Positions 36,835 through 44,506 of a DNA stretch of 64,000 bases are shown piece by piece. The position numbers and the translations under genes were made by a program. The notes under the pieces are model-generated. The model did no database searches. It was not told the DNA's origin and saw only the letters and a list, made by a program, of their open reading frames with translations. Numbering within the stretch: position 1 is the stretch's first letter; every line of letters begins with the position of its first letter. This stretch comes from Rhodopseudomonas infernalis (GTDB lineage Bacteria > Pseudomonadota > Alphaproteobacteria > Rhizobiales > Xanthobacteraceae), in NCBI RefSeq assembly GCF_022271405.1, contig NZ_JAJNAL010000023.1:1-64000 (forward strand), given 5' to 3'.

Positions 36835-37123
36835 AGTCGCCCGCACGGTGTCGCGGCTCGTGGCCGCAATGACACGCCCGGCGACGAGCTGCACAGCCCT
36901 TACTACATCAGGGCGCCGCGTGCTTGTGCGGCCGAACTATTCCAGAGTACTGGATCGCGGCGCATGGAGCTCAGCTTCCGGCCGCTGGCCGGGTTGCTGT
37001 GCTCCCATGTCAAATCAGTGACAACGACCTCGACTATCGTCAGCTTGCGAGCCTCTTGCACGTACAACTAATCGATGCATCGGCCCGGTGTCGCTCGTCG
37101 TACTCTACAAGTCAGGTCATTCG
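36835..37123 (+). other. Gap upstream of the porin gene
   Basis: No gene is seen. The stretch contains a degenerate piece of the palindromic family (AGAGTACTGGATCGCGGC at about 36945) without its partner arm. The region 37045-37123 is presumably the porin promoter and leader. No strong ribosome-binding sequence is visible before the chosen start. Confidence 0.4.
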
Positions 37124-39145
37124 ATGGTCTTCCGCCGCCCAGTATCATCCGCTCGAAAATTCCCGCCCGCCGATCGGCCCGCCCCGCGCGGTGTCGCCTG
37201 GCTGTTCGCCGGTGCGGCGCTCGGAGCGGTGGCGCTGCCGCACGCCGCTGCGGCGGCCGACGCGCTGAAGGCGTTGCCGGCGCCGGCCTATGACTGGAGC
37301 GGCTTCTATGTCGGCGCTCACGCCGGCTACCTGCGGGGCCATTCCGACGCAACGCTGCGCGACCCGGCTTTCGTCGCCCAGGCCTCGAACGGCTCCGGCG
37401 GCGTCACCGCCGGCGCGCAGGCCGGCTACAACTGGCTGACGCGGTCCGGCGTGCTGGTCGGGCTCGAGGCCGACATCTCGTTTCCGAGCTACCTGCCGGC
37501 CAACGCGGTGCTGTCGGAATTCAGCGGCACGCCGGCGCAGCTGCAGCATCTCGATTTCTACGGCGGCGTGCGGGGCCGGCTCGGCGTCGCGACCGGACCA
37601 TGGCTGGCTTACGTCACCGGCGGTCTCGCTTACGCGCATGAGCGCTATCTGACCGATCCGGAATCCGACAAGGCGCTCAACGGCCGGTTCGGCTGGGTGG
37701 CGGGCGCCGGCCTCGAATACGGGTTCACGCCGCATTGGAGCGCGCGGATCGAGTATCTGTACAGCGACTATCAGCACGCCTCGGTGGCGCTGCCCGGCGG
37801 CGGCCGCTTCGAGTCGGCGCTGAATCTGCAGACCATCCGGGTCGGGCTCAATCGCCGGCTCGACTGGCTCGGCACCGGCGATGCGACACCGTTCGCCGCA
37901 GTCGCCGATCCGGAATCGGATCGCTGGGAAATCCACGGCCAGACCACCGTGGTGGGCCAGGGCTATCCGTCGTTCCGCGCGCCCTATAGCGGCACCAACA
38001 GTCTGGCGCCGAATAGCCAGTTCAAGGCCACCTGGAGCAGCGGCCTGTTCGCCAATGTCCGGCTGTGGGACGGCGGCGAATTGTATCTCGGCCCGGAATT
38101 CCTGCAGGGCTACGGGCTCAGCGACACCGTCGGCGTCGCTGGCTTCCCCAATGGCGAAGGCCAGAAATCCGGCTTCGCCTACCCGCATATCAGCCCGTCG
38201 CGGTTCTATCTGCGTCAGACCTTCGGGCTCGGCGGCGAACAGGAGCAGCTCGCCTCCAGCGCCTCGCAGCTGTCCGGCAAGGCCGACATCTCGCGGCTGA
38301 CGCTGCAGGTCGGCCGCTTCAGCGTCGTCGATCTATTCGACGGCAACAGCTACGCACACGATCCGCGACGCGACTTCATGAACTGGTCGATCTGGGCGTC
38401 CGGTGCGTTCGACTACGCCGCCGACAAGCTCGGGCTGACCTACGGCGCGACCGCCGAGCTGAACCAGAAGCAATGGGCGATCCGCGCCGGCTACTTCCTG
38501 ATGGACGCCGAATCGAACTCCAACAATTTCGACATGCGACTGTTCAGGCGCGGCCAATACGTCGCCGAGCTGGAGACGCGCTACACGCTGTTCGGCCAGC
38601 CCGGCAAGCTGCGCACGCTTGGTTTCATCAACAGCGTGTTCGCCGGCAGCTATCGCGAGACGCTCGACAATCCGCAGTACGGCGTCGACATCAGCCAGAC
38701 CCGCAAGGGACGAATCAAATACGGCTATGCGTTCAATCTCGAACAGGCCATCACCGACGATCTCGGCCTGTTCGGCCGCTGGAGCTGGAACGACGGCAAG
38801 AACGAGATCATGGCGTTCACCGATATCGATGACAGCCTATCCGGCGGCATCTCGATTCGCGGCGCGCGCTGGGGCCGGCCCGACGACGTCATCGGCATCG
38901 CCGGCGCCAGCAACGGCCTGTCGCGCGACCACCGCGATTTCCTCGCCGCCGGCGGCCTCGGCCCGCTGATCGGCGACGGCGCGTTGAATTATCGCCGCGA
39001 GCGCGTGCTGGAAACCTACTACGCCTACGCCGTCACCCCCGCCTGGACCGCAACGGCCGACTACCAATACATCGTCAACCCGGCGTTCAACGCCGACCGC
39101 GGCCCGGTCTCGGTGTTCTCGGGACGGCTGCACGGGGAGTTTTGA
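37124..39145 (+). CDS. Two-barrel outer-membrane porin (Omp25-like domain + OprB-like porin)
   Basis: A 673-residue exported protein. The signal peptide is at about residues 22-46 (WLFAGAALGAVALPHAAAAA). An 8-stranded small barrel of the Omp25/opacity type follows at about 57-247 (YDWSGFYVGAHAGY, LVGLEADISF, LEYGFTPHWSARIEYLYSDY). From about 265 to the end it resembles the carbohydrate-selective porin OprB (WEIHGQTTVVGQGYPSF, RLTLQVGRFSVVDLFDGNSY, YVVNP-like YQYIVNPAFNADRGPV). It ends in phenylalanine, as outer-membrane barrels do. A GTG at 37088 is an alternative start. Sugar uptake is likely but not proven. Confidence 0.88.
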   Translation: MVFRRPVSSARKFPPADRPAPRGVAWLFAGAALGAVALPHAAAAADALKALPAPAYDWSGFYVGAHAGYLRGHSDATLRDPAFVAQASNGSGGVTAGAQAGYNWLTRSGVLVGLEADISFPSYLPANAVLSEFSGTPAQLQHLDFYGGVRGRLGVATGPWLAYVTGGLAYAHERYLTDPESDKALNGRFGWVAGAGLEYGFTPHWSARIEYLYSDYQHASVALPGGGRFESALNLQTIRVGLNRRLDWLGTGDATPFAAVADPESDRWEIHGQTTVVGQGYPSFRAPYSGTNSLAPNSQFKATWSSGLFANVRLWDGGELYLGPEFLQGYGLSDTVGVAGFPNGEGQKSGFAYPHISPSRFYLRQTFGLGGEQEQLASSASQLSGKADISRLTLQVGRFSVVDLFDGNSYAHDPRRDFMNWSIWASGAFDYAADKLGLTYGATAELNQKQWAIRAGYFLMDAESNSNNFDMRLFRRGQYVAELETRYTLFGQPGKLRTLGFINSVFAGSYRETLDNPQYGVDISQTRKGRIKYGYAFNLEQAITDDLGLFGRWSWNDGKNEIMAFTDIDDSLSGGISIRGARWGRPDDVIGIAGASNGLSRDHRDFLAAGGLGPLIGDGALNYRRERVLETYYAYAVTPAWTATADYQYIVNPAFNADRGPVSVFSGRLHGEF

Positions 39146-39299: not shown

Positions 39300-40931
39300 T
39301 TACGCCACCGGCGCAAAGCTCTCCGCGCGGGCCATCGCCCAGGCCTGTTTGAAGCGCGCATCCTCGGTGCCTTGTAGCAACTCGCCCTCGCGCAGCGCCG
39401 GGTAGAGCTGCGCGAACGACACCACCTCGGACGGCGAGACGCGCTGCGAGAAGTGATAGGGCCGGATCTCCTGCGGATGATCGAGCCCCGCCGCGGCGAT
39501 CAGTTCGGCCAGCGCGTGCAGCGTGGCGCGGTGATAGTTGGCGACGCGCTCGATCTTGTCCGGCACCACCAAGGCGCGATACCGGGTCGGCTCCTGGGTG
39601 GTGACGCCGGTCGGGCAGCGGTCGGTGTGGCAGCTCAGCGACTGGATGCAGCCGAGCGCGAACATGAAGCCGCGCCCCGAATTGCACCAGTCGGCGCCGA
39701 GCGCCATCGCGCGCGCCATGTCGAAAGCGGTGGCGATCTTGCCGGACGCGCCGAGCTTGATCCTGTGGCGCAGTCCGGCGCCGATCAGCGCGTTGTGCAC
39801 CAGATTGATGCCGTCGCGCATCGGCATGCCGAGATGGTCCATGAATTCCAGCGGCGCCGCGCCGGTGCCGCCTTCCTTGCCGTCGACCACGATGAAGTCC
39901 GGCGTGATGCCGGTCGCCAGCATCGCCTTGCAGATCGCCAGAAACTCCCACGGATGGCCGATGCACAGTTTGAAGCCGGTCGGCTTGCCGCCCGACAGCC
40001 GCCGCATCTCGGCGATGAAGCGCATCATCTCGATCGGGGTCGAGAACGCCTTGTGATAGGCGGGCGACACGCAATCCTCGTCCATCGCCACGCCGCGGAT
40101 GCGCGAGATCTCCTCCGACACCTTGGCGGCCGGCAGCACGCCGCCATGGCCTGGCTTGGCGCCCTGGCTGATCTTCAGCTCGACCATCTTGATCTGATCT
40201 TCGGAGGCGACGCGCGCGAAGGCTCCCGGATCGAACCGGCCGTCGCGGGTGCGGCAGCCGAAGTAACCGGAGCCGATCTCCCAGATCAGGTCGCCGCCAT
40301 TCTCGCTGTGATACGGGCTGACACCGCCTTCGCCGGTGTCGTGCGCGAAGCCGCCTTTCTTCGCGCCGGCGTTGAGCGCCCGGATGGCGTTCGGACTGAG
40401 CGCGCCGAAACTCATCGCCGAAATGTTGAACACCGAGGCGGAGTAAGGCTTGGCGCAGTCCGGACCGCCGATGCTGATGCGAAAATCCTCCTCGGCATGC
40501 GGGCGCGGCGCCACCGAGTGATGCATCCACTCGTAGCCGTCGCCGTAAACATCCTCCTGGGTGCCGAACGGCCGTTTGTCGAGCACCATCTTGGCGCGCT
40601 GATAGATCAGCGCCCGCGTGTCGCGGCTGAACGGCTTGCCGTCCTTCTCGCTCTCGAAGAAGTACTGCCGCATCTCGGGCCGGATCTCCTCGAGCAGGAA
40701 CCGCAGATGCGCCGAGATCGGATAGTTGCGCAGCACCGCGTGGTTCTTCTGCACCAGGTCCCACAGTCCGAGCAGCATCAGCGCCGCAAACAGCAGCGCC
40801 AGCGTCAGCACCAGGCCGAACAGATCGCTGTCGACATCCGACAGCGCCACGGCCGCGAACAGCGCGGTCAGCACGGTGCAGATCGTCAGCGCGATGTAGC
40901 GCGGCGAAAACGGAAGCAGGATGGTGTCCAT
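39300..40931 (-). CDS. Membrane-anchored glutamate synthase-like FMN protein
   Basis: A 543-residue protein; the ATG at 40931 is preceded by GGAGA. Two N-terminal hydrophobic helices at about 10-30 and 37-60 are followed by a domain like the FMN/[3Fe-4S] synthase domain of GltB. Its segments include FNISAMSFGALSPNAIRALNAGAKKGGFAHDTGEGGVSPYH, KISQGAKPGHGGVLP, VDGKEGGTGAAPLEFMDH and a Cys-rich GCIQSLSCHTDRCPTGV. It lacks the amidotransferase domain, so it is not a complete glutamate synthase. Related stand-alone proteins have no settled function that I know. It diverges from the ATP-grasp/Mur-ligase pair. Confidence 0.88.
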   Translation of the reverse strand: MDTILLPFSPRYIALTICTVLTALFAAVALSDVDSDLFGLVLTLALLFAALMLLGLWDLVQKNHAVLRNYPISAHLRFLLEEIRPEMRQYFFESEKDGKPFSRDTRALIYQRAKMVLDKRPFGTQEDVYGDGYEWMHHSVAPRPHAEEDFRISIGGPDCAKPYSASVFNISAMSFGALSPNAIRALNAGAKKGGFAHDTGEGGVSPYHSENGGDLIWEIGSGYFGCRTRDGRFDPGAFARVASEDQIKMVELKISQGAKPGHGGVLPAAKVSEEISRIRGVAMDEDCVSPAYHKAFSTPIEMMRFIAEMRRLSGGKPTGFKLCIGHPWEFLAICKAMLATGITPDFIVVDGKEGGTGAAPLEFMDHLGMPMRDGINLVHNALIGAGLRHRIKLGASGKIATAFDMARAMALGADWCNSGRGFMFALGCIQSLSCHTDRCPTGVTTQEPTRYRALVVPDKIERVANYHRATLHALAELIAAAGLDHPQEIRPYHFSQRVSPSEVVSFAQLYPALREGELLQGTEDARFKQAWAMARAESFAPVA

Positions 40932-41078
40932 GAAATCTCCGCAGGCCGGATCGCGAGGCACCGGCCGAGTTGTCGTCCGTGGCGGCGGACCGCGGCCGCG
41001 CTTTTAGCACGCCGATCGCGACACGATAACGGCAGCAGGTCGCTGGATCACGCCTCGTTGATCCGCTAGGTTGCGGCC

Positions 41079-42107
41079 ATGCAAGTCGTCCGGGCGCGGA
41101 CCGCGGTGGGCCGGAGTGTGATGCCGAAGCTTCAGGACTATCGCGCCGGAAAGCCGGGATATTATCCCGATCAGGCGATCTATGCGGCCTATGCGTGTGC
41201 ACGGCTCGGCCTGTCCTTTCAGGATCTCGACGGCGGCAGTGGATTGCTGTTCAGCGTGGCCTCAAACGCCACGGAAGTGTGCTTCGGCGGCGGGCGCTGT
41301 TCGTATTATCCGCAGAACAATGCCACGGCGGCCACACTCGCCACCGACAAGGCGCTCGCCAATGCGCTACTCGAACGCGCCGGTGTGGCGACGCTGGGCG
41401 GGAACTACTTCTTTCTGCACGATCGCCACCAGGCCCTGCGTCCCGCCGGACACAACCGCGGCGACGCGGCCGCGTATCTCGCCGGCCTCGGCGGCCGCGC
41501 CTTCGCCAAGCCGCTGACCGGGTCGCGCGGCGACTTCGCGCAGATCATCGAGGGGCCCGCGGCGCTGGCCGCGTATCTGGGCGAGGTCGGGCGCACCTAC
41601 GATTCGGTGCTGATCCAGCCGGTCGCCTCGGGGGACGAGTACCGGGTGTTCGTGATCGACGGCAATGTTCTCTACAGCGCCCGAAAGCTGCCGCCTTACG
41701 TGATCGGCGATGGCACGCGCACGCTGCGCACGCTCGTCGCCGAGCACGATCGCGCATTGCGGGCGCACGGGCTGTCGGAGAGCGCGACGGACGATGCGGC
41801 GTTCGATCGCGTGCCCGCGGCGGGCGAGCGCTGCGACATTGCCGGGCGGATGAATCTCAGCGCCGGCGGCGTGATGAGCATGGCGGACGCCGGCGCGGCG
41901 GCGGTTGCCGCTGCGACGACGGCGGTGAAAGCGCTCGGGCTGCGGCTCGGCGCGGTCGATCTGTTCGTCGATCCGGACGATGCCGCGTCGGTTCGAGTCA
42001 TCGAGGTCAACGCCAACCCGGCGATCCGCTTTCTGGAAAGCTGCGGCCGCGCCGATCTGATAGTTGCGATCTGGCGTCACACCTTCACCACCATGGGACT
42101 GCTGTAA
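41079..42107 (+). CDS. ATP-grasp ligase related to cyanophycin synthetase
   Basis: A 342-residue ATP-grasp protein. The N-lobe and central lobe contain TLATDKALANALLERAGVATLGG (about 87-108), RAFAKPLTGSRGDF (about 140-153), DSVLIQPVASGDEYRVFVID (about 175-194) and KLPPYVIGDGTRTLRTLV (about 203-220). The Mg-binding end is GAVDLFVDP plus VIEVNANPAIRFLE, with Asp294, Glu309 and Asn311. The YR-V and PPYVIGDG blocks match the ATP-grasp half of cyanophycin synthetase. The fused Mur-ligase half is missing, but a separate Mur-ligase gene starts at the very next base. An ATG at 41121 behind GGAG is an alternative start. Confidence 0.82.
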   Translation: MQVVRARTAVGRSVMPKLQDYRAGKPGYYPDQAIYAAYACARLGLSFQDLDGGSGLLFSVASNATEVCFGGGRCSYYPQNNATAATLATDKALANALLERAGVATLGGNYFFLHDRHQALRPAGHNRGDAAAYLAGLGGRAFAKPLTGSRGDFAQIIEGPAALAAYLGEVGRTYDSVLIQPVASGDEYRVFVIDGNVLYSARKLPPYVIGDGTRTLRTLVAEHDRALRAHGLSESATDDAAFDRVPAAGERCDIAGRMNLSAGGVMSMADAGAAAVAAATTAVKALGLRLGAVDLFVDPDDAASVRVIEVNANPAIRFLESCGRADLIVAIWRHTFTTMGLL

Positions 42108-43424
42108 ATGTTCGACCTGCCGAAATACGGCGAAGGCCTGTGCCTGGCGCGGCTCGGCGCCCTGCTGGGCAGGCTCGGCGTCGACCGGGAGCGGCTGCGG
42201 CGTAGTGCTGTCGCGGTGTGCGGCTCCAACGGCAAGGGCTCGACCGCCGCCTTCACGGCCAGCATCGGGCGTGCCTTCGGGCTGCGCACCGGGCTGTTCA
42301 CCTCGCCGCATCTCACCCGCTTCAACGAGCGCTTCCGCCTCGACGGCGAGCCGATCGCCGACGAGCTGCTGAACCCGCTGCTGGCGCGCGTCACGGATGC
42401 GCTCGCCGACGTCGCGCGCGAGCGCGGCGAGAAGTTCGGCGCGTTCGAGGCGCAGTTCGCGCTGGCCTGCGTGTACTTCCAGCAGAGCGCGTGTGATCTG
42501 GCGGTGTTCGAAGCCGGCATCGGCGGCCGCTACGATCCGGTGCGGCTGCTCGGCGCGCCGGTCAGCTGTGTCGCCTCTGTCGACCTCGAACACACCGCGC
42601 TGCTCGGCGATTCGCTGGAACTGATCGTCTCCGACAAGAGCGACGCCTGCGCGGCCGGCGGCACCATCGTGTATGGCGAGAACTGCCGGCCGCTGCGCGA
42701 TCACCTCACCGAGTACAATCGCAGTCGCAACGTCGAGGCGCTGTTTGTCGGCGACGCTATCGGCATCGCCAATGCCACGATCGTCGAGGCGCGGCAGCGC
42801 TTCGATCTGCGGATCGGCGATCGCACCTATCAGGGACTGGAGACCTCGCTGCTCGGCGCCTTCCAGCTCAATAACGCGGCGGTCGCCGCCGCGCTGGTGT
42901 CGCTATGGGTACGGCGGGCGCGTCCCGATCACGATCCGGCGCGCGTCGAGACTGCGATCCGCAACGGCCTGTGCGACGCGCGCTGGCCGGGACGCCTGGA
43001 GACGATCAGCACCGAGCCGCTCACCGTGATCGATGTCGGCCACACGCCGGACGGCATCCGGCAGGCGCTCGCCGGGCTTTCAGCGGCGCATGGCCCGCAG
43101 GGCTGGCTGCTGGTGCTCGGCGTGTCGCGCGACAAGGCCGCGGCCGAGATCGTGAATGCGCTGGCGCCGTCGTTCGACACCATCGTGTGCAGCTCGGCGC
43201 ATCACAAGGGCGCGCCGGCCGACGTCATCGCCGAAGCTGCGCGCGCGGCCAATCCGCGCGCCGAGGTGTACGTCGCCGCGACGGTTGCGGACGCGGTGCA
43301 TGACGCGCGCGCGTTGGCCGAGCGGCTCGGCGCGCGGATCTACGTGGCGGGCGGGCTGTTCCTGGCGATCGAATTCGCCACCGTGCTGCGCGGCGGCCGC
43401 GCCGAGGATCTGCGCTTCTTCTGA
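42108..43424 (+). CDS. FolC-like Mur ligase family protein
   Basis: A 438-residue Mur ligase with ATP-binding CGSNGKGSTAAF at about 38-49, the FolC-type TSPHL at 65-69, and DLAVFEAGIGGRYDPVR. The C-terminal ligase domain has RWPGRLETISTEPLTVIDVGHTPDGIRQAL. It resembles dihydrofolate/folylpolyglutamate synthase. Its ATG directly follows the ATP-grasp stop with no gap, so the two proteins are probably made together. Cyanophycin synthetase joins these same two enzyme classes in one chain. This may therefore be a second, non-folate ligase. A separate folC elsewhere in the genome would support that. Confidence 0.82.
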   Translation: MFDLPKYGEGLCLARLGALLGRLGVDRERLRRSAVAVCGSNGKGSTAAFTASIGRAFGLRTGLFTSPHLTRFNERFRLDGEPIADELLNPLLARVTDALADVARERGEKFGAFEAQFALACVYFQQSACDLAVFEAGIGGRYDPVRLLGAPVSCVASVDLEHTALLGDSLELIVSDKSDACAAGGTIVYGENCRPLRDHLTEYNRSRNVEALFVGDAIGIANATIVEARQRFDLRIGDRTYQGLETSLLGAFQLNNAAVAAALVSLWVRRARPDHDPARVETAIRNGLCDARWPGRLETISTEPLTVIDVGHTPDGIRQALAGLSAAHGPQGWLLVLGVSRDKAAAEIVNALAPSFDTIVCSSAHHKGAPADVIAEAARAANPRAEVYVAATVADAVHDARALAERLGARIYVAGGLFLAIEFATVLRGGRAEDLRFF

Positions 43425-43507: not shown

Positions 43508-44506
43508 ATGACCGCCGTCAATCGCCAGGTGCTGCTGATCGAGAAGCCGAAAGAGAAGCTCGGGACCGAGCATTTTCGGATGGCGGACGCCGCGATGCCG
43601 GAGCCGAAGGACGGCGAGGCGCTGGTCAAGGTACGCTACATCTCGCTCGACGCCGCCAACCGCGCCTGGATGCAGGGCGCGACCTATCGGGCCGCGGTCG
43701 AGACCGACAGCGTGATGCCGGGCGGCGGCATTGCCGAAGTGGTGAGTTCGAAGGCGCCCGGGCTCGCAGCCGGCGACATCGTATTCGCCGACACCGGCTG
43801 GCAGGACTACGCGGCGCTGCCCGCCAAGCATCTCACCAAGCTGCCGAAGGTCGAGCCGCTGACGCATCTACTCAGCGTCTACGGCATCGCCGGCCTGACC
43901 GCGTACTTTGGCCTGCTCGACATCGGCCAGCCGAAAGCCGGCGAGACCGTCGTGGTGTCGGCCGCGGCTGGTTCGGTGGGGTCGATCGTCGGCCAGATCG
44001 CCAAACTCAAGGGCTGCCGCGTCGTCGGCATCGCGGGCGGCAAGGCCAAGTGCGACTGGCTGGTGAACGAACTCGGCTTCGACGCCGCCGTCGACTACAA
44101 GGACGGCGCTCTGTTCAAGGCGCTGCGCGCCGCGGCGCCGAACGGCATCGACGTGTATTTCGACAATGTCGGCGGCGACATTCTCGAGGCCTGCCTGGCC
44201 CAGATGAACCTCAAGGGCCGCATCGCCTGTTGCGGCGCCGTCTCGCAATACGACCGCACCCCCTCGGCCACCGGCCCGCGTGGCGTGCCCGGACTGATCG
44301 TGGTGAAGCGCCTGATCATGCAGGGCTTCATCGTGATGGACTACATGGACCGCCGCGACGAGGCCGTGGCCGAGCTGCAGGGCTGGGTCGAAAGCGGCAA
44401 GCTCAAGGTGCAGGAAGACGTCATCGACGGCCTCGAGAACACCCCGCAGGCGCTGATCGGACTCTTGGCGGGCGAGAACCGCGGCAAGCGGATGGTGAAG
44501 GTCTAA
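43508..44506 (+). CDS. NADP-dependent oxidoreductase, MDR superfamily
   Basis: A 332-residue zinc-independent medium-chain dehydrogenase/reductase. The ATG at 43508 follows AAGGGAG. It resembles the leukotriene B4 12-hydroxydehydrogenase/prostaglandin reductase group (CurA-like). Landmarks are YISLDAANRAWM, the nucleotide-binding VVSAAAGSVGSIVGQIAKLKGCRVVGIAGGKAKCDWL at about 148-184, YFDNVGGDILEACL, and the C-terminal EDVIDGLENTPQALIGLLAGENRGKRMVKV. It typically reduces enones. It follows the Mur ligase by 83 bp and may or may not share its promoter. Confidence 0.91.
   Translation: MTAVNRQVLLIEKPKEKLGTEHFRMADAAMPEPKDGEALVKVRYISLDAANRAWMQGATYRAAVETDSVMPGGGIAEVVSSKAPGLAAGDIVFADTGWQDYAALPAKHLTKLPKVEPLTHLLSVYGIAGLTAYFGLLDIGQPKAGETVVVSAAAGSVGSIVGQIAKLKGCRVVGIAGGKAKCDWLVNELGFDAAVDYKDGALFKALRAAAPNGIDVYFDNVGGDILEACLAQMNLKGRIACCGAVSQYDRTPSATGPRGVPGLIVVKRLIMQGFIVMDYMDRRDEAVAELQGWVESGKLKVQEDVIDGLENTPQALIGLLAGENRGKRMVKV

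Follow-up and report, generated by a model that had tools for sequence, protein, structure and literature searches.

A co-inherited ATP-grasp and FolC-like ligase pair in Rhodopseudomonas and its relatives, a likely two-enzyme amide-ligase module

Why would a bacterium with an ordinary folC gene keep a second, FolC-like one pressed against the gene of an ATP-grasp ligase? The question arises in a stretch of 64,000 nucleotides from Rhodopseudomonas infernalis (contig NZ_JAJNAL010000023.1; the whole stretch is called the window here). Its open reading frames (ORFs) include an ATP-grasp gene that directly abuts a FolC-type Mur ligase gene on the same strand, the TAA of the first standing immediately before the ATG of the second (Table 1). 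As an original prediction made from the letters had said, the two enzyme types are separate chains in one translational unit. That prediction took the pair for a split cyanophycin-synthetase-like system, which is not how we read it. We regard the pair, with a probability of roughly 0.6, as a two-enzyme ATP-dependent amide-ligase module making a small product.

The two genes are inherited together

Among 391 genomes of the family, the FolC-like protein (E up to 1e-60) occurs in 58 and the ATP-grasp protein (E up to 1e-40) in the identical 58, with adjacent coordinates in every one. These comprise 7 Rhodopseudomonas, 26 Bradyrhizobium (g2), 16 Tardiphaga (g4), 7 g159 and 2 g128 genomes; a further pair genome (G500) lies outside the count because its contig stops inside the ATP-grasp gene. 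Scanning species genomes for two peptide patterns, an approach that may miss distant relatives, yielded 60 loci from Rhodopseudomonas, Bradyrhizobium, Tardiphaga and metagenome-assembled genomes (MAGs), several of them named to family, order or above and one labelled Acetobacteraceae. In all 60, the ATP-grasp gene has the FolC-like gene directly behind it, with a junction gap of -1 in 27, -8 in 27, 0 in four and +8 in one; the single exception is a MAG locus (L144) where the ATP-grasp match stops early and the junction is not measurable. Since the pair is adjacent in 58/58 family genomes and 60/60 scan loci, with a junction between -8 and +8 in 59 of the latter, the arrangement exceeds chance, and the conservation across relatives on which the original prediction turned is there.

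The pair proteins are also 2.2 to 2.7 times more diverged than the flanking proteins (mean distances of 0.356 and 0.323 vs 0.149 and 0.130, in 47 of the 60 loci). In the same loci, the distances of the two pair proteins show a correlation of 0.92, and a partial correlation of 0.74 once both flanking genes are taken out. A stop inside the match was flagged in two pair ATP-grasps (G629 and G523), as well as in two (G638 and G597) of the alternative, solo kind described below.

The FolC-like enzyme is a diverged paralogue

The genome of the window holds a second FolC elsewhere (G000:C69), 32% identical to the FolC-like protein. The ORF just ahead of it reads as AccD from its translation, by eye, which is the neighbourhood where the original prediction had supposed another folC might lie. 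Two proteins matching the FolC profile TIGR01499 are present in each of 12 pair genomes, against one in each of 8 solo genomes and one in each of 12 other genomes of the order. The FolC paralogue of the pair is probably not the cell's folate synthase.

The paralogue scores above the TIGR01499 cut-off (238.1 vs 162.65 bits), with 47.3 bits against murE, 24.1 against cyanophycin synthetase (TIGR02068) and a sub-cut-off 13.2 against pMurC. In Pfam, its C-terminal domain passes the cut-off and its Mur middle domain does not (18.8 vs 24), which is why a first search of its own genome with this Pfam family brought up no more than five other proteins. Its AlphaFold model (predicted local distance difference test score, pLDDT, 81.9) matches folylpolyglutamate synthases (FPGS) first, at a template modelling (TM) score of about 0.8; FPGS/FolC structures occupy ranks 1-16 and MurE follows from rank 17 on.

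The P-loop GSNGKGS, the lysine K177 and D309/H312 are retained; we take the P-loop, metal-ligand and carbamylated-lysine positions to be the catalytic core of FolC. Elsewhere, canonical T127, T161-N162, D178, N327 and S432 have become G111, V145-R146, E161, T313 and G416. T127 and the DATN and GSLY motifs presumably form the substrate side of FolC, with T127, T161 and N162 on the pterin side. These three residues are invariant in 32/32 canonical FolC rows, whereas all 16 FolC-like rows compared have DPVR for DATN, GGLF for GSLY and G111 for T127. Three distant FolC-like rows share R146, G111 and G416, and keep the T of DATN (T161, at V145) and a T at F117. Over the whole alignment, 123 columns invariant in 31 canonical FolC rows were compared with 73 FolC-like rows. 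The canonical residue is kept in at least 90% of the FolC-like rows at 50 columns, including the P-loop, metal and lysine positions, and is found in fewer than 10% of them at 58, although some of these changes are conservative.

A signature of S40, G62, G111, R146, E161, D176, D179, C181, E298, V310, G416 and F418 is present in 19/19 FolC-like rows. Together with the three distant pair members, the FolC-like proteins form one clade (support 100/100) against 32 canonical FolC. The supposed divergence from folate enzymes is thus evident in both residues and tree. Judged by sequence, the changed residues would pull away from ordinary folate chemistry.

The ATP-grasp enzyme is nearest to cyanophycin synthetase

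Among solved structures, CphA is the nearest family, sequence and fold match of the ATP-grasp protein. Its top NCBIfam match is likewise cyanophycin synthetase, at 71.6 bits, short of the cut-off of 850 and matched only from profile position 204 onward, which implies an ATP-grasp without the N domain. RimK (TIGR00768, 40.8 vs 143.4 bits) and MptN (NF040720, 25.1 vs 350 bits) also fall below their cut-offs, the ATP-grasp matches in Pfam are all sub-threshold, and the PADLOC models of anti-phage defence matched neither pair protein nor one solo protein at E 0.01. The gene probably starts at ATG 41121 (residue 15), because homologue alignments begin there.

We mapped residues with the numbering of TeCphA1 (PMC9427784), using 18 pair rows and 3 CphA rows for comparison. 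In TeCphA1, aspartate is bound by N394, S396, R323 and R458, the catalytic residues are K220, K261, R309, D431 and E450, and E215 touches the arginine side chain of the cyanophycin primer (PMC9427784). The ATP/Mg positions K91, K144, D294 and E309 and the acceptor position R189 are kept in all 18 pair rows. So is the aspartate-site set N259, S261, K203 and R317, in which K203 gives a Lys for R323 of CphA. The equivalent of the primer contact E215 is T86 or S86, and that of the CphA P-loop His267 is R150, again in 18/18 rows. Cyanophycinase, the other enzyme raised by the original prediction, is absent: its profile TIGR02069 matched none of 20 genomes, while the same profile was positive in 3 of 14 known genomes used as a control.

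Relatives beyond the family

A search of 347 genomes of the class recovered seven strong ATP-grasp relatives (E up to 1e-30) outside the family. In three of them, from two other families, a FolC-like gene stands directly after the ATP-grasp gene: G716, and G798 and G901 of one genus. In G798 the genes run accD, canonical folC, ATP-grasp, FolC-like and are tightly spaced (gaps of some 14 and 15 bp). A lone ATP-grasp relative in G680 (L320:5077-8877) has a 4-bp overlap with thyA; folA follows some 1.5 kb further along the same strand, beyond a GNAT-acetyltransferase-like gene (by eye) and an opposite-strand ORF. No folate neighbour was seen by eye in G716, G743 or G781. These accD-folC-pair and thyA-ATP-grasp contexts point towards folate, in two lineages only, and keep a folate-type acceptor in play.

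The lone relative in G781 (L321:7092-9596), a 2-Mb low-GC genome, sits beside two genes resembling LysE-type amino-acid exporters by eye. In G921 (L293), two different ATP-grasp ligases adjoin, one of them of the solo kind (38% identity).

A second occupant of the same site

Rhodopseudomonas genomes that lack the pair have one gene, for another ATP-grasp protein of about 316 amino acids (the solo ATP-grasp), between the Glu-synthase-domain and MDR genes that border the pair. The solo protein is found in 88 of the 391 family genomes (E up to 1e-30), and none carries both it and the pair. Of the 16 Rhodopseudomonas genomes in the sample, 7 have the pair and the other 9 the solo gene. Bradyrhizobium divides into 26 with the pair, 78 with the solo gene and at least 3 with neither, where genes for a ferredoxin-NADP reductase (FNR)-like protein and the MDR reductase stand with no ligase between them. 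Altogether 244 genomes have neither ligase; 166 of these fell outside the empty-site search, so more empty sites may exist. All 30 of the 88 solo loci that were inspected lie at the pair's site, 28 beside a Glu-synthase or FNR-like gene and two in the same neighbourhood without such flanks found.

Pair and solo ATP-grasps fall into separate clades (100/100 for the pair). We accordingly rejected the idea that they are diverged orthologues, though long branches meet in this tree and make the rejection non-final. As the clades are separate, the alternation looks like replacement by a different ATP-grasp subfamily, with some doubt. Where the pair has R317, all 20 solo proteins compared, the short forms among them, have E; at the S261 position, 18/20 have D or E. 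Examples are L173:452-1399 and L188:553-1479; the Bradyrhizobium short form lacks about 50 residues of the large loop and keeps the Asn loop.

Table 1. Features at and around the ligase pair, in window coordinates
Feature	Position	Strand	Remarks
CphA/GshF/RimK-type ATP-grasp ligase gene	41079-42107	+	342 amino acids; 328 from the likely true start at ATG 41121
FolC-type Mur ligase paralogue	42108-43424	+	438 amino acids
TAA/ATG junction, zero gap	42105-42110	+	stop of the ATP-grasp gene touches the start of the FolC-like gene
Flavin mononucleotide (FMN)-binding glutamate-synthase-domain (Glu_synthase) protein	39300-40961	-	ATG at 40931; left border of the site
MDR-family NADPH reductase	43508-44506	+	ATG at 43508; right border of the site

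The original prediction placed a divergent glutamate-synthase-like flavoprotein gene 147 bp away and an MDR reductase downstream. Both are present, the former with its ATG 147 bp from position 41079. The Glu-synthase gene occurs in 53 and the MDR gene in 54 of the 60 pair loci, many of the remaining loci being short contigs, but in genomes lacking the pair they also occur, in 14/18 and 12/18 respectively. Because they border the site with and without the pair, they are probably bystanders outside the system, and the idea of them as partners is not supported. A functional link of the flavoprotein was rejected on these grounds and because an FNR-like gene intervenes between it and the pair in Bradyrhizobium and Tardiphaga. 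In the tree of this FNR, the pair label and the solo label each need 4 changes, of which well-supported branches force only 1 and 2, respectively; the bootstrap had not settled, so the figures give no count of swaps. A mobile cassette was rejected too, as the pair occupies the same site across pair genomes (the flank counts above).

In some Bradyrhizobium of both kinds (L108:12445-14712 and L189), the ligase site is separated from the MDR gene by genes for an amino-acid ATP-binding cassette (ABC) binding protein and a dicarboxylate symporter. Upstream in the window, an ORF of 685 amino acids (37088-39145, plus strand) combines an OMP_b-brl beta-barrel domain (residues 47-256) with a complete OprB carbohydrate porin domain (304-685), and 39 of the 60 scan loci have a match to this ORF near the pair.

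The mobile-cassette idea was also checked against plasmid records. The ATP-grasp protein of the window gave one match, annotated cphA. The FolC-like protein gave 109, none over 80% of the query, and the 15 of these that were listed are annotated folP or folylpolyglutamate synthase. A distant pair ATP-grasp gave 28 matches, the best being two Rhizobium plasmid proteins; in one Rhizobium-plasmid neighbourhood, no FolC is annotated beside the ATP-grasp in a gene table that is incomplete.

What the pair may make

CphA and FolC share a chemistry in which ATP activates a carboxylate to an acyl phosphate that an amine then attacks (PMC9427784, PMC4790348). In the proposed module, the ATP-grasp enzyme would turn a carboxylate on a small acceptor into an acyl phosphate and then couple the acceptor to an amino acid; an acidic amino acid is probable, because the enzyme retains the positions with which CphA binds aspartate. 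The FolC paralogue, with its catalytic core intact and its substrate side changed, would attach a further amino acid to that molecule through the acyl-phosphate chemistry of FolC, either after or before the ATP-grasp step. What we infer here is that both steps act on one acceptor, which amino acids are added and in what order. Being encoded back to back and inherited together, the ligases most likely act in turn on one molecule, much as MyfA and MyfB probably do on methylofuran (PMC8141765), and the product is probably a short conjugate rather than a storage polymer. Our leading single guess for the acceptor, a tentative one, is a folate- or pterin-type molecule.

Several observations weigh against a two-enzyme module. 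The AlphaFold model of the ATP-grasp enzyme is of middling confidence (pLDDT 68.5), and its best fold matches, CphA1 and GshF, reach TM scores of just 0.44-0.45 (0.44 for the best PDB match). At the position of R317 (R458 in CphA), the two distant pair members tested have Ala, and three further relatives have G, L or S; given this variation, the amino acid may differ among lineages and the pocket is not constant. In an order-wide search of 297 genomes, none of 26 weaker ATP-grasp loci outside pair genomes had a FolC-like match in the 1.5 kb flanks, and among the seven strong relatives in the class, such a match is missing from the flank (again 1.5 kb) of three, and a fourth is cut short at its contig end. 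Relatives without such a partner imply that an ATP-grasp of this kind can work alone.

Two other explanations fare worse than the module. If the FolC-like protein were a spare but ordinary folylpolyglutamate synthase beside an unrelated ATP-grasp, its score above the folC cut-off and the preference of its model for FPGS structures would follow naturally; this is highly improbable, however, given the separate clade (100/100), the 58 of 123 invariant columns where the canonical residue survives in fewer than 10% of rows, and the absence of any FolC-like gene apart from the ATP-grasp in the 391 family genomes at the thresholds used. The split cyanophycin synthetase of the original prediction, making cyanophycin or a closely related polymer, is hardly credible. 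Although CphA is the best family, sequence and fold match of the ATP-grasp half and the aspartate-binding positions are kept, the other half is of FolC type (24.1 bits for TIGR02068 vs 238.1 for folC), the residue contacting the primer arginine is T or S in 18/18 rows, the match to the CphA profile begins only at position 204, and none of the 20 genomes has a cyanophycinase.

The remaining explanations concern which molecule the module would modify. The original prediction held that the FolC-like protein works outside folate metabolism; its divergence from the folate enzymes stands, while the accD-folC-pair and thyA-ATP-grasp contexts point the other way. The pair might tailor folate or pterin tails: the ATP-grasp would attach an amino acid to folylglutamate in an alpha or other non-gamma linkage, the FolC paralogue would extend the product, and a modified folate pool would result. 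This would suit a protein that passes the FolC subfamily cut-off, the tight gene order in G798, the thyA overlap with folA nearby in G680, and the presence of MptN, an alpha-glutamate ligase for a pterin coenzyme, among the sub-cut-off matches of the ATP-grasp. For E. coli, alpha linkages have also been reported from the distal part of the folate tail (PMC1971073). It is nonetheless doubtful, as T127, T161 and N162, invariant in the canonical rows, are replaced (the distant rows keep the T of T161), the tested borders of the pair are not folate genes in the 60 scan loci, and the contexts come from two lineages. The order accD-folC is itself an ordinary neighbourhood, so one of those two contexts may be accidental. 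A more specific version, in which the CphA-like ATP-grasp and a neofunctionalised FolC cap folate or a related coenzyme with a non-standard amino acid (e.g. an alpha-linked acidic one), and the slot between the Glu-synthase and MDR genes is an exchangeable tailoring locus where, in sister species, the reversed pocket charge of the solo enzyme (R317 to E) yields different versions of the same coenzyme, is a long shot.

Somewhat more plausible, though still with the odds against it, is a non-folate secondary metabolite or peptide conjugate, an accessory compound made at a hot spot that swaps tailoring ligases. The solo ATP-grasp in 88 of 391 genomes, never together with the pair and in its own clade, the 2.2- to 2.7-fold excess divergence of the pair proteins and the Bradyrhizobium genomes (at least 3) with neither ligase all agree with this. 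On the other side, no further gene was seen travelling with the pair and the border neighbours vary, and a pair or solo gene in 16/16 Rhodopseudomonas and most Bradyrhizobium examined looks like a conserved, not an accessory, function.

Comparison with known systems

The profile labels folC and cyanophycin synthetase are likely wrong for these two genes in Bradyrhizobium, Tardiphaga and Rhodopseudomonas. Inherited together, with their catalytic positions intact and their pockets changed, the two enzymes point to a product of which we found no description in the open-licence PMC literature, and the pair's either/or alternation with another ATP-grasp at one site provides a natural comparison for finding that product. 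If the acceptor is folate, the two would be candidates for the enzymes behind the non-gamma linkages that have been reported from folate tails of bacteria. Nor did we find a description of such an ATP-grasp/FolC pair in the same literature (subscription journals were outside its scope); a 2009 amidoligase survey by Iyer and others may list one. The gene called folC2 in PMC1971073 belongs to a different family, COG1478, and another folC2, in PMC3621897, is plasmid-borne.

The nearest known systems each share part of the arrangement. RimK, MptN and LysX are ATP-grasp amino-acid ligases like that of the pair, and MptN tailors a pterin coenzyme, but the matches of the pair's enzyme to them are partial and sub-cut-off. 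MyfA and MyfB, likened here by description, are likewise amide ligases and probably work one after the other on a single coenzyme, methylofuran; unlike the pair, both are ATP-grasp enzymes, without a Mur-type partner (PMC8141765). The archaeal pseudomurein genes (PMC11915815) are part of a cell-wall pathway covering ATP-grasp and Mur-ligase proteins, a likeness drawn from description plus the sub-cut-off pMurC match. With FolC (TIGR01499, the bifunctional dihydrofolate/folylpolyglutamate synthase), the paralogue shares the fold, the P-loop, the metal and lysine positions and a score over the subfamily cut-off; it differs in its separate clade and fixed 12-residue signature, in a genome with a normal folC elsewhere. 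CphA1 (TIGR02068), finally, resembles the pair in combining an ATP-grasp with a Mur-type ligase and in the conserved ATP, Mg and amino-acid positions of its ATP-grasp half. However, CphA1 is a single fusion protein with a MurE-like M domain and an N domain in addition, whereas the pair consists of two chains with a FolC-type Mur half, has lost the E215 contact and comes with no cyanophycinase in the genomes searched.

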